Shown here piece after piece: positions 43,733 through 46,865 of a stretch of 64,000 nucleotides of DNA (positions are counted from its first letter, which is position 1; every line of letters starts with the position of its first letter). The position numbers and the translations under genes are program-made. Below the pieces are notes generated by a model. It was not told the DNA's origin, did not search any database, and saw only the letters and a program-made list of their open reading frames with translations. This DNA comes from Haloarcula salina (lineage in GTDB: Archaea; Halobacteriota; Halobacteria; Halobacteriales; Haloarculaceae): positions 744,001 to 808,000 of the forward strand of contig NZ_WRXL01000001.1 of the NCBI RefSeq assembly GCF_010119195.1. The letters run 5' to 3'.

Positions 43733-44353
43733 ATGGGAGTCCTCGAGAACAAGGCACGCGCGCGGACGTTCTACAAGTACCTCTCGAAGGTGTACGACCA
43801 GATCAACCCCTTCATCTGGGACGAGCGGATGCGCGACGAGGCGATCGCGATGCTCGACCTCTCCCCCGACGACCGCGTCCTCGACGTGGGCTGTGGGACC
43901 GGCTTCGCCACCGAGGGGCTCCTCGAACACGTCGAGACTGTGTACGGACTCGATCAGAGCGCCCACCAGCTCTCGAAGGCCTACCGGAAGTTCGGCAAGC
44001 GCGGGGACGTTCGTTTCCACCTCGGCGACGCCGAGCGACTCCCGTTCAAAGACGACAGCTTCGACGTGGTCTGGTCGTCCGGGTCCATCGAGTACTGGCC
44101 CAACCCCGTGGACGCCCTCGCGGAGTGTCGGCGGCTGACCAAACCCGGGGGACGGGTCCTCATCGTCGGCCCAGACTATCCGAACTCGAGCATCTTCCAG
44201 AAGATGGCCGACGCCATCATGCTGTTCTACGACGAGGCGGAGGCCGACCGGATGTTCACCGAGGCCGGCTTCGAGGACTTCGAACACCACATCCAGCAGT
44301 CCCGCCCCGGCAGCCCGCGCGCGATCACGACCATCGCGACCGTGCCGGAGTGA
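43733..44353 (+). CDS. Class I SAM-dependent methyltransferase
   Basis: This 206-residue enzyme has motif I VLDVGCGTGF (49-58) and motifs typical of UbiE/MPBQ-type quinone methyltransferases (FDVVWSSGSIEYWPNP, then LTKPGGRVLIVGP). The C-terminal part resembles plant plastoquinone or tocopherol methyltransferases. A quinone or lipid substrate is plausible, and menaquinone chemistry would fit the respiratory setting, but no biosynthetic partner lies nearby. Confidence 0.88.
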   Translation: MGVLENKARARTFYKYLSKVYDQINPFIWDERMRDEAIAMLDLSPDDRVLDVGCGTGFATEGLLEHVETVYGLDQSAHQLSKAYRKFGKRGDVRFHLGDAERLPFKDDSFDVVWSSGSIEYWPNPVDALAECRRLTKPGGRVLIVGPDYPNSSIFQKMADAIMLFYDEAEADRMFTEAGFEDFEHHIQQSRPGSPRAITTIATVPE

Positions 44354-44374: not shown

Positions 44375-45616
44375 TCAGCGCCCGTTCTCGACGCGAACGG
44401 AGATCCGTTCGCCGTCCTGTGTCGTCACGGTGACCGTGTAATCGTCCTGCGGTTCGATCGACCAGAGCGCGCCGTCCGTGCCGGTCGTGCCGACGCGCTG
44501 GCCGTTGATGGCGACGGTACCCTCGATCGGCGCGGCGGTCGCGTTGTCGGACACGGCGATCAGGAGCGGCCCCGATTCGTAGGACTGACTGACTTGGAGG
44601 CGCGTCGACTGGTCCACTGCGGTAGCAACGGTCGAGCGCTCGACGGTCGACAGCTCGATCGACTGGTACTCGTAGAAGACGTTCGCCGTCCCGCCGTCGA
44701 GGAAGGCCGTCAGCTGGCCGTTCGGGTGATCGGCCTGGAGCTGGTAGATCGCGGTTCGGCCGTACGTCTGGACGGCCGGGTACTGCTCGCTGTAGAGCCA
44801 CGGGTAGAGGCCCTCGGCGCGTGAGTTGACCGCCCCGAGCGGGTCCGGCGTGTCGGCGAACTGATCGGGCGACTCCGGCCGGCGCTCGCTCCCGAGGTAC
44901 GTCTCGCGGGTGTACTGCCCGTCGGTGACCGTCGATAGCATGTATCCGGTCGAGGACGCCTCGAGGTACACCGTGGTCGCGTCTGCCTCGCCGGTGGCTT
45001 CAGTCGCCACCTGCCGGCTGATGGGGCCACGGAAGGTCTTGAGGACGCCGCGGTTGTTCTCCAGTCGGAACCGCTGGGCCTGCGACAGCGAGTAATCGGG
45101 GGCCGTCCCCGCGGCGGTCCGAACCCGTTCGAGCCGCCGCGTCAGCTGTCTGGATTCGGTGTCGACGAGCGCGCGCTGGCGAAGGAACTCTTGGGTGGTG
45201 AGCGCGCCGCTCGCGTATCGCTGCGTCGCGGATTCTTGCTGCCGTTCCAGACGCTCGACGCGCGTCTCGATGTCGGCCAGCGTGTCGGCGACGAGCTGGT
45301 CGCGTGCGGCATCGGTATCCCGCCGGAAGAACTCCTGTTCGAACTTCGAGACGGCGTAGCGCGAGCGGAGCTCACGGGAGCCGGCCGCGACGGCCACCCC
45401 GACGTCGATCGAGGTCCGGTTGTAGGTCGCCACGCGGACTTCGCTGTCGGGTATCGAGAGGTGGTTCGTCGTGTTGTCGACGACGGTGATCTGCGGGAGG
45501 GACTCGCCGTCGGCCGCCTGTGCGGGTGCGGTCGGCGCCGCGACGGACCCGGTCGCCGGAACGGCGAGTGGCACCACCAGGAGGAGGGCGACGAGAGGTG
45601 CGAGGAGGGGGCGCAT
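44375..45616 (-). CDS. Secreted or surface protein of unknown function
   Basis: This 413-residue protein has a Sec-type signal (hydrophobic 4-24, cleavage likely near 25-35). The mature part has a coiled-coil-rich region (about 85-160) followed by beta-rich segments; the last 60 residues look like a carboxypeptidase-regulatory or Ig-like fold. It has no membrane anchor. It is divergent from a membrane-tethered winged-helix protein, a neighbourhood I recall from other haloarchaea. Function is unknown. Confidence 0.82.
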   Translation of the reverse strand: MRPLLAPLVALLLVVPLAVPATGSVAAPTAPAQAADGESLPQITVVDNTTNHLSIPDSEVRVATYNRTSIDVGVAVAAGSRELRSRYAVSKFEQEFFRRDTDAARDQLVADTLADIETRVERLERQQESATQRYASGALTTQEFLRQRALVDTESRQLTRRLERVRTAAGTAPDYSLSQAQRFRLENNRGVLKTFRGPISRQVATEATGEADATTVYLEASSTGYMLSTVTDGQYTRETYLGSERRPESPDQFADTPDPLGAVNSRAEGLYPWLYSEQYPAVQTYGRTAIYQLQADHPNGQLTAFLDGGTANVFYEYQSIELSTVERSTVATAVDQSTRLQVSQSYESGPLLIAVSDNATAAPIEGTVAINGQRVGTTGTDGALWSIEPQDDYTVTVTTQDGERISVRVENGR

Positions 45617-45770
45617 CAGCGGCGATTACTCACTGACCGTACAAAAACCCCACCATTCTCCACGCAAAGATAGTCGCCTGAGACGGCACGAGACCTTTCA
45701 AAGAGCGCTCTGACGTTTTATTCACGGATGGAAAGGGTTTTGCCCCCAGGCTGATGAGCAGTGAACGAGA

Positions 45771-46865
45771 ATGACCCCGCGGGTATCAGGTGCCCTCCTC
45801 CTCGTCCTGGTCGCCGTGCTGGCGATCACCCCGCTCGCGACCGCGGCGACCCCGGCGGCCGCCACCCCCCTCCAGCAGACGACGGCGACACCGGAGCCGG
45901 TCGCGGAGAACACGACGTTCTCGCTGCAGATCCGCGAGAACGGCGACGCGAGATGGACGATTACGGACACGTACGCGCTCGAGACCGAGAACGAGAGTCA
46001 GGACTTCAGCGGCTTCGGTGAGGACTTCGCCAACGGCGACGCCGAGGTGGGATGGCTCGACGCGTTCCGGACCGCGAACGACGCGGCGGGCACGGCGACG
46101 GGTCGCGAGATGGAGATCACCGCGGTCTCCCGCAACTACACGGTCTCGGACCGGAAAGGGCAACTCGTCCTCGCGTTCACGTGGACGAACTTCGCGACGC
46201 GCTCCGGCGAGGATATCGTCGTCGGTGACGCGTTCAACACGACCCGCGGAACGTGGTTCAACAGCCTGACCGAGGACCAGCGGCTGGTGATCTCGCCGCC
46301 GACCGGATACGGGGTCGAGAGCGCACCGAGCGCCGTCGACGACGGCAGGCTCACGTTCGAGGGCCCGCGGACGTTCGAGCCCGGCTACCTGTCGATCGTG
46401 TACACGGGCGAGCAGTCGCTGGAGGCGACCGACACGGACACGCCGGCGACGTTCCTCGGTGACGGCGGCTCGCTCTGGATCGGCGGAGTCGTCCTCGCGA
46501 TGCTCCTCGTCGGCGCTGTGGGCTACATGGTCAGACGAGGCCACGCCGGCTCGCTGCCGTCGGCGGCGAGCGGGACCGACGACGAGGACGACGGGGACGT
46601 GACCGAGCCCCCGGCCGACGGGGAATCGGCGGACGACGTCGACGTCGAACTGCTCAGCGACGAGGAGCGGGTCGAGCGGTTGCTCGAGGAGAACGGCGGC
46701 CGCATGAAACAGGCCCGGATCGTCACCGAGACCGGGTGGTCGAACGCGAAGGTCTCCCAGTTGCTCTCCTCGATGGACGAGGACGACCGGATCGACAAGC
46801 TCCGCATCGGCCGCGAGAACCTCATCTCGTTCCCCGACGAGGACATCACCGACTTCGACGAGTAA
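45771..46865 (+). CDS. Membrane-tethered winged-helix regulator candidate
   Basis: This 364-residue protein has a signal peptide (1-25), an extracytoplasmic beta-rich domain (about 45-220, DUF7345-like), one membrane helix (about 235-254), an acidic linker and a cytoplasmic winged helix (about 297-355: VERLLEENGGRMKQARI, then WSNAKVSQLLSSM). That topology would pass an outside signal to a DNA-binding domain in one polypeptide. The divergent secreted protein gene may be its target or ligand (inference). Confidence 0.87.
   Translation: MTPRVSGALLLVLVAVLAITPLATAATPAAATPLQQTTATPEPVAENTTFSLQIRENGDARWTITDTYALETENESQDFSGFGEDFANGDAEVGWLDAFRTANDAAGTATGREMEITAVSRNYTVSDRKGQLVLAFTWTNFATRSGEDIVVGDAFNTTRGTWFNSLTEDQRLVISPPTGYGVESAPSAVDDGRLTFEGPRTFEPGYLSIVYTGEQSLEATDTDTPATFLGDGGSLWIGGVVLAMLLVGAVGYMVRRGHAGSLPSAASGTDDEDDGDVTEPPADGESADDVDVELLSDEERVERLLEENGGRMKQARIVTETGWSNAKVSQLLSSMDEDDRIDKLRIGRENLISFPDEDITDFDE

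Follow-up and report, generated by a model that had tools for sequence, protein, structure and literature searches.

A divergent gene pair of Halobacteria encodes a candidate membrane-tethered winged-helix regulator and a secreted protein that may be its partner

Introduction

The way in which information from the cell surface is relayed to DNA is, to our knowledge, poorly known in archaea. At positions 44,375 to 46,865 of the Haloarcula salina DNA analysed here (contig NZ_WRXL01000001.1, positions 744,001 to 808,000; this whole stretch of 64,000 nucleotides is referred to as the window), a gene encoding a secreted protein, designated P1, stands divergently to a gene encoding a membrane protein, designated P2, in which an outer domain is combined with a predicted cytoplasmic winged helix. 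A first-pass annotation of this DNA proposed that P2 could be a surface-sensing system on a single polypeptide, with its ligand or target encoded next door. The question that the locus raises is whether the two proteins belong together and, if so, whether P1 acts on P2 or is what P2 controls. We propose, with belief and doubt in about equal parts, that P2 is a transmembrane transcription regulator with P1 as its secreted partner, and that the two are the archaeal equivalent of a co-component system, in reversed (type I) topology. This reading is based on computed domain anatomy, topology signals, linkage, recurrence and co-variation, from which we infer physical contact, the direction of control, the signal and the targets.

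Published sources are cited below for the sections consulted. Transmembrane transcription regulators, which carry a DNA-binding domain and at least one transmembrane (TM) region in one protein, are described as widespread, archaea included; single-pass proteins are their commonest class, and some of these regulators have associated proteins (PMC10269533). In the co-component regulators ToxR/ToxS, TcpP/TcpH, and VtrA/VtrC, the associated protein inhibits proteolysis of the regulator or aids dimer formation (PMC10269533).

Results and Discussion

The open reading frames of P1 (413 aa; 44,375 to 45,616, reverse strand) and P2 (364 aa; 45,771 to 46,865, forward strand) face away from each other, start to start, across a gap of 154 bp (45,617 to 45,770). 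All Pfam matches of P1 are above curated cut-offs (PF23379, PF23375, and PF23374; E-values 1.3e-34, 9e-33, and 2e-21): a DUF7096 region comprising signal peptide and long helices (44,984 to 45,607, computed from a query that started at residue 2, the first Met being absent), a DUF7094 region (44,642 to 44,971), and an Fn3_arc domain (44,408 to 44,629), all on the reverse strand, with 120.3, 113.2, and 76.1 bits vs. cut-offs of 27, 27, and 28.9. P2 begins with a hydrophobic N-terminus taken as a signal peptide (45,771 to 45,848, its end approximate and set by eye), which is followed on the forward strand by the DUF7345 outer domain (PF24036; 45,924 to 46,310; E-value 4e-44, 150.4 bits vs. a cut-off of 27.5), a single predicted TM helix (46,476 to 46,535), and the DUF7343 winged helix-turn-helix (HTH) domain (PF24034; 46,650 to 46,835; E-value 2e-30, 104.9 bits vs. 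27.6). Four of these five domains are Pfam families of no known function, no NCBIfam model matched either protein above its cut-off, and none of the open-licence PMC articles searched names DUF7345, DUF7343, DUF7096, DUF7094, Fn3_arc, or DUF5667, a family met below.

The AlphaFold2 models, built on shallow alignments (17 sequences for P1 and 14 for P2), agree with this anatomy. P1 is predicted to form long helices at about residues 72-207 with beta domains after them (mean predicted local distance difference test, pLDDT, 81; predicted template modelling score, pTM, 0.78), in line with its first description as a secreted coiled-coil/beta protein. In the P2 model (mean pLDDT 73.6, pTM 0.50 for the whole chain), the outer domain at about residues 43-212 consists of ten-residue blocks at pLDDT 81-98 and the winged helix at about residues 291-358 of blocks at 71-90, whereas helix 236-255, which coincides with the hydrophobic TM segment, is poorly supported and the linker after it is of low confidence and disordered. 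Fifteen Foldseek matches at E <= 0.001 were obtained with the whole P2 model, 14 of them to FMO antenna proteins and one to PA4063 (TMt 0.40). A second structural comparison of P2 was taken up by its winged helix, which, in the 50 matches listed, aligns with SelB-, MarR-, ArsR-type, and Z-alpha winged helices with Z of 9.5-11. In the first, the geometry of the antenna protein matches is poor (TM about 0.15, root-mean-square deviation 13-15), and the LppM domain fell narrowly above the E threshold (E 1.1e-3, TMt 0.46). For P1, Foldseek gave no match at E <= 0.001, and a sequence search of the PDB returned nothing significant for either protein (best E 0.07 for P2 and 0.075 for P1).

An alignment of 70 diverse P2 orthologues, picked from 139 of suitable length, contains many invariant or near-invariant residues in the winged helix, as would be expected of a domain that reads a conserved DNA target. 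On the strength of fold and conservation, the P2 winged helix very probably binds DNA. With a winged-helix fold and a hydrophobic TM segment in one chain, P2 falls within the sequence definition of transmembrane transcription regulators.

Topology signals in orthologues place P1 and DUF7345 almost certainly outside the membrane and the winged helix inside. Among the 128 of 143 P2 orthologues scored by a pattern rule (15 were excluded), N-X-S/T sequons exceed expectation in the outer part (379 seen vs. 154 expected from shuffles) and fall short of it in the inner part (28 vs. 70), while the mean number of K/R per ten residues rises from 0.12 before the helix to 2.06 after it. The linker between the TM helix and the winged helix has a median length of 63 residues. 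Sequons are also enriched in P1 (668 vs. 317 in 137 orthologues), and a hydrophobic segment above 1.6 mean hydropathy is found in the mature part of none of these 137 proteins. The initial description of P2 as a one-polypeptide regulator with a signal peptide, an outer domain, one helix, and a cytoplasmic winged helix is thus borne out by Pfam, model, and topology signals alike.

In Haloferax volcanii, HVO_0303 is idsA2 and HVO_0309 is menG (PMC8305020), counterparts of genes that flank the pair. HVO_0307 has been identified as an N-glycoprotein with three AglB-type N-glycosites and 201 peptide-spectrum matches (PSMs), and HVO_0306, described as a 'probable transmembrane glycoprotein/HTH domain protein', has one candidate O-glycopeptide with 13 PSMs (PMC8241124). 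Judging by this synteny and these descriptions, HVO_0307 and HVO_0306 are apparently the orthologues of P1 and P2. No function of DUF7345-DUF7343 proteins such as HVO_0306 is reported in the open-licence PMC articles searched. CsmR was considered as a member of the P2 family and rejected, as it is hvo_1209 and not HVO_0306 (PMC13286277); a mention of HVO_0307 in PMC6801745 concerns HVO_A0307 (lrp), a different gene.

The first-pass annotation made its proposal depend on co-occurrence of the two genes across genomes, and co-occurrence was found. Profile searches detected DUF7345 in 145/145 and DUF7096 in 145/145 Halobacteria genomes. By script, and among the matches listed, the two stand divergently within 3 kb in at least 132 of these genomes; a renewed search of 13 genomes gave eight more by eye, which brings the divergent pair to 140/145. 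At 16 loci from named genomes, P1 adjoins P2 in 13 by tblastn.

Could P1 and P2 be neighbours through vertical inheritance only? The neighbourhood was sampled in 144 stretches, each of 16 kb or less and a few of them cut by contig ends, by tblastn at E <= 1e-3; P1 was recovered in 137 of the 140 stretches in which the profile search had found it. Flank matches were obtained for menG in 136, ids in 107, atpI in 104, and etfB in 96 stretches, and the complete gene order is retained in 54. The frequency of menG and the stretches of intact order favour such passive inheritance, but the pair is present where the flanks differ, including four loci with no menG match (L101, L147, L198, and L222), and its two genes stay together more constantly than etf, ids, or atp stay with them, menG coming close behind. 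The pairing also recurs in paralogues, and the co-variation of P1 with the P2 outer domain exceeds that with flanking genes (both below). We regard mere co-inheritance as very unlikely. In the window, the menG-like methyltransferase gene (43,733 to 44,353) is convergent with P1, and its linkage is nearly as tight as that within the pair; by our own reading of the tblastn results, a menG-type gene has this position in 135/144 stretches.

Recurrence was surveyed in 58 genomes, each from a different genus, proximity being defined as within 3 kb. The best-scoring DUF7096 match lies near a DUF7345 in 53/58 genomes (in G021 it is a tandem paralogue). The other DUF7096 matches lie near a DUF7345 in 23 of 36 cases, vs. 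0.2 expected; one of the 23 is the core pair of G117, whose best-scoring DUF7096 is not the core copy. Above the curated cut-off the proportion is 16/20, and below it 7/16. The reverse association is weaker: 28 of 107 other DUF7345 matches have a DUF7096 nearby.

The evolution of the two proteins provides a further sign of partnership. In 67 genomes, when atpI and etfA serve as controls for species distance, the partial correlation between P1 and the P2 outer domain is 0.56, vs. 0.38 between P1 and the winged helix and 0.41 between the outer domain and the winged helix. Values involving flanking genes are lower: 0.10 for P1-menG, -0.03 for P1-etfB, -0.03 for outer domain-menG, -0.10 for outer domain-etfB, and 0.33 for menG-etfB. 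Within families, the partial correlation of P1 with the outer domain is 0.66 in 67 genomes (controls atpI and etfA), 0.77 in 133 (control menG), and 0.78 in 102 (control atpI), while the outer domain and the winged helix of the same polypeptide give 0.16, 0.43, and 0.49, respectively. Some within-family permutation counts were odd (P1-menG r 0.01, 0/300), and the r values were relied on instead. The stronger co-variation of the outer domain with P1 than with the winged helix is as expected if P1 contacts the outer domain.

Taken with the linkage kept despite variable flanks and the pairing of paralogues, the co-variation upholds the link to the neighbouring gene that was originally claimed, and we are confident that P1 and P2 are functional partners. 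Direct contact between P1 and DUF7345 is a narrower claim, for and against which we see about equal reason.

Several observations weigh against a regulator with a dedicated secreted partner. Linkage alone is weak, since that of a menG-type gene is almost as tight. The genes of P1 and P2 are far apart in G029 and G068, though both are retained (L227, L229, L110, and L149), with P1, confirmed by Pfam, still adjoining atp genes and, judged by N-termini, menG, and with P2 adjoining ids in G068. Two genomes (G021 and G129) are without a divergent pair, and G130 is uncertain, since its DUF7096 lies near one contig end and a truncated DUF7345 starts another contig, possibly a contig split. At three of the named-genome loci (L078, L079, and L080; two of Halarchaeum and one of a Halobacteriales metagenome-assembled genome) no P1 was found by tblastn, the profile not being used there. 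In the paralogue survey, 79 of the 107 other DUF7345 matches have no DUF7096 nearby, a count in which diverged partners can be missed, and many DUF7345 receptors may work without a partner of this family. With atpI as the sole control, the correlation reaches 0.58 for P1-menG and 0.41 for outer domain-menG, and the former value means that single-control values overstate the effect. P1 and the outer domain are both fast-evolving and extracellular, and the controls are without an unrelated extracellular protein; shared fast evolution of surface proteins could still underlie their correlation. Finally, both copies of the candidate operator discussed next are present in only 17/137 gaps.

With start codons chosen by rule, the gap between the genes of P1 and P2 measures from 96 to 382 bp in 137 genomes, with a median of 157 bp. 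At 45,728 to 45,741 of the forward strand lies ATRGAAAGNGTTTT; an element like it scores well in 135/137 gaps, at a nearly fixed distance from the P2 ATG. It is best read as the core promoter of P2, comprising a transcription factor B recognition element (BRE) and a TATA element with leaderless spacing, because an element of the same kind, TTCGAAAACGTTTA, stands equally far upstream of etfB, and because the two agree with the BRE (CGAAA) and TATA (TTWT) motifs proposed for haloarchaea (PMC4983044). That ATRGAAAGNGTTTT should instead be an operator dedicated to P2 is suggested by its constancy, by its partly palindromic appearance by eye, and by its information content, which is the highest in a comparison of seven upstream regions (22.5 bits in 143 genes vs. 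20.1 bits for etfB in 93; 22.2 vs. 20.0 bits at 91 shared loci). With an element of such similar conservation, position and motif upstream of etfB, we give this possibility hardly any credence. A short upstream reading frame from an ATG in ATRGAAAGNGTTTT was discarded, as A replaces G there in about one fifth of genomes. P1 has a TATA-like element of its own, TTTTTGTA, at 45,640 to 45,647 of the reverse strand (position -31, 12.5 bits).

Upstream of the P2 core promoter, at 45,692 to 45,720 of the forward strand, stands a tandem direct repeat, GACCTTTCA-N11-GACGTTTTA, with a 20-bp period. At least one copy of the motif RACNTTTHM occurs there in 42/137 gaps (shuffles: mean 3.4, maximum 10), whereas on the reverse strand it occurs in 0/137; two copies, always 20 bp apart, occur in the 17 gaps mentioned (shuffles: mean 0.1, maximum 2). 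Fifteen of these belong to the family of the window (15 of its 28), nine of them to its genus, which points to few independent origins. This GACNTTTYA-like repeat, found mainly in the family of the window, is the only candidate operator. A regulon could not be proposed from it, as the genome of the window contains one exact match and one with two mismatches.

P1 might be the regulated output, an envelope structural or stress protein whose expression, together with its own, P2 would set through the gap according to the envelope state it senses. The divergent orientation, the short gap, and the tandem repeat at -79/-59 of P2, whose sole other match in the genome carries two mismatches, are all in accord with this. 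On the other hand, the repeat is confined to some lineages, the genes are apart in two genomes, paralogous loci are often in tandem order, and the co-variation of the extracellular parts suggests contact at the protein level. We consider this explanation rather unlikely, though a serious one, and control of the shared gap by P2, whichever way P1 acts, a tentative and somewhat doubtful proposal. As for the shared promoter gap that was originally claimed, its 154 bp stand, but the genes are kept in G029 and G068 although apart, so a shared promoter is not essential, and each gene has its own core-promoter-like element.

The proposed action of P1 on P2 has its closest parallel in the accessory proteins of ToxR- or TcpP-type regulators, and P1 and P2 might, by analogy, work like a co-component system. 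A nearby gene for an extracytoplasmic partner is present in 140/145 genomes and P1 bears extracellular signals; as to binding or stabilisation of the regulator by the partner, what is seen is the co-variation of P1 with the outer domain. P1 could also be a chaperone or stabiliser of the P2 outer domain, similar to ToxS or TcpH, that itself carries no signal. Some transmembrane regulators have accessory proteins acting in this way (PMC10269533), and the strong co-variation is in keeping with such a role; yet the P1 gene has a promoter-like element of its own, and the protein comprises three domains, one of them Fn3-like, and looks secreted without a membrane anchor (0/137). A role limited to stabilisation therefore seems improbable to us, if well worth bearing in mind. 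P1 further appears to differ from the accessory proteins of ToxR/ToxS, TcpP/TcpH, and VtrA/VtrC in that it looks soluble and is divergently transcribed.

P2 itself resembles single-pass transmembrane transcription regulators in having a DNA-binding domain and a TM helix in one polypeptide (PMC10269533), and differs in its signal peptide, its outer domain placed first and its C-terminal winged helix; a term search of the main text of that article finds no mention of haloarchaea. Archaeal membrane-bound HTH proteins are also represented by ArnR and ArnR1 of Sulfolobus, which regulate surface structures; in ArnR the HTH is N-terminal and is combined with a HAMP-like domain, a sensing domain, and a C-terminal pair of TM helices, a layout different from that of P2 with its C-terminal winged helix and one TM helix (PMC6396743). 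The predicted DNA-binding domain of P2 matches MarR/ArsR-type winged helices in fold, but it is fused to a TM helix and an outer domain, and its only Pfam match above cut-off is DUF7343, with no MarR or ArsR model among the matches. Pfam DUF7345-DUF7343 proteins, such as HVO_0306 by synteny, are expected to share its domains and their order. The topology of P2 is reversed in comparison with ToxR and CadC, whose DNA-binding domain is N-terminal.

In the mechanism that we propose, DUF7345 would stand outside the membrane, one helix would cross it, and the DUF7343 winged helix would bind DNA from the membrane at the end of a flexible cytoplasmic linker. P1, whose probable location is the space beneath the S-layer or inside it, would most likely dock on DUF7345, alone or with something that it binds, and docking would alter the oligomeric state or the stability of P2 and hence its DNA binding. 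Alternatively, regulated proteolysis could free the winged helix from the membrane to act in the cytoplasm. The single TM helix and the long linker, disordered in the model, would suit such release; no cleavage site or protease was identified, although no systematic search for linked proteases was made, and we judge it unlikely.

Arrangements at the paralogous loci are divergent or tandem, frequently with a short DUF7345 protein without a winged helix. The DUF7096-like secreted neighbour of a DUF7345 protein scores above the cut-off in L228, L231, L239, and L240 but under it in L232 and L236; in L238 it has no Pfam match. In L228, L236, L238, L239, L240, and L231, it is a short DUF7345 protein without a winged helix that stands directly beside the secreted, mostly DUF7096-like gene. 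These short proteins are possibly decoys or co-receptors. In Hfx. volcanii, HVO_1944 shares the description 'probable transmembrane glycoprotein/HTH domain protein' with HVO_0306, and four N-glycosites are known in HVO_1945 (PMC8241124); judged solely by description and number, the two resemble a further pair of this kind. A CdrS motif has been reported upstream of HVO_1944 (PMC8406309). The genome of the window also encodes, on contig C7 (L234:6655-8373), a protein of 572 aa that has a hydrophobic segment at its N-terminus, ten matches to TSP3 repeats, and the DUF7343 winged helix at its C-terminus, which suggests that this DNA-binding module takes input from other outer domains as well.

In a sample of 120 genomes of the phylum, DUF7345 is present in 32 (19/19 Halobacteria and 13/101 others) and DUF7096 in 20, namely, the 19 Halobacteria and G171, where a weak match below the cut-off lies about 1 kb from a DUF7345. 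DUF7343 alone is found in 285/294 phylum genomes at E <= 0.001, in 234 of them above the cut-off. Twelve non-haloarchaeal loci from ten genomes were inspected, and ten receptor proteins and ten neighbours from them were run against Pfam. Eight receptors contain DUF7345 and DUF7343, a ninth combines DUF7343 with the later part of DUF7345, and the tenth is short with DUF7345 only. At five of the 12 loci (L247, L251, L252, L253, and L254; five of the ten neighbours run), a secreted-looking gene with DUF5667 above the cut-off lies within about 600 bp of the receptor gene. The receptor frame at L251:4141-4938 (G149) is broken by one TGA, a sign of a pseudogene or an assembly error.

Conclusions

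The pair stands in nearly all sampled haloarchaea; what looks new in it is the combination of a type I layout with a secreted partner that is large and soluble, kept throughout an archaeal class. More tentatively, and with somewhat more doubt than belief, we propose a class-wide archaeal ligand-receptor system, in which a secreted, glycosylated helical protein would signal through a type I receptor, the cytoplasmic end of which would be the transcription factor. It may form the core of a larger family of archaeal receptors in which the DUF7343 winged helix is combined with exchangeable outer domains (DUF7345, TSP3 repeats) and secreted partners (DUF7096 in haloarchaea, DUF5667 in their relatives). 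By synteny, HVO_0306 and HVO_0307 of Haloferax volcanii, a genetically tractable species, are apparently orthologues. If confirmed, the proposal would add archaea to the known range of co-component membrane regulators, with reversed topology, and would assign roles to several domains of unknown function.

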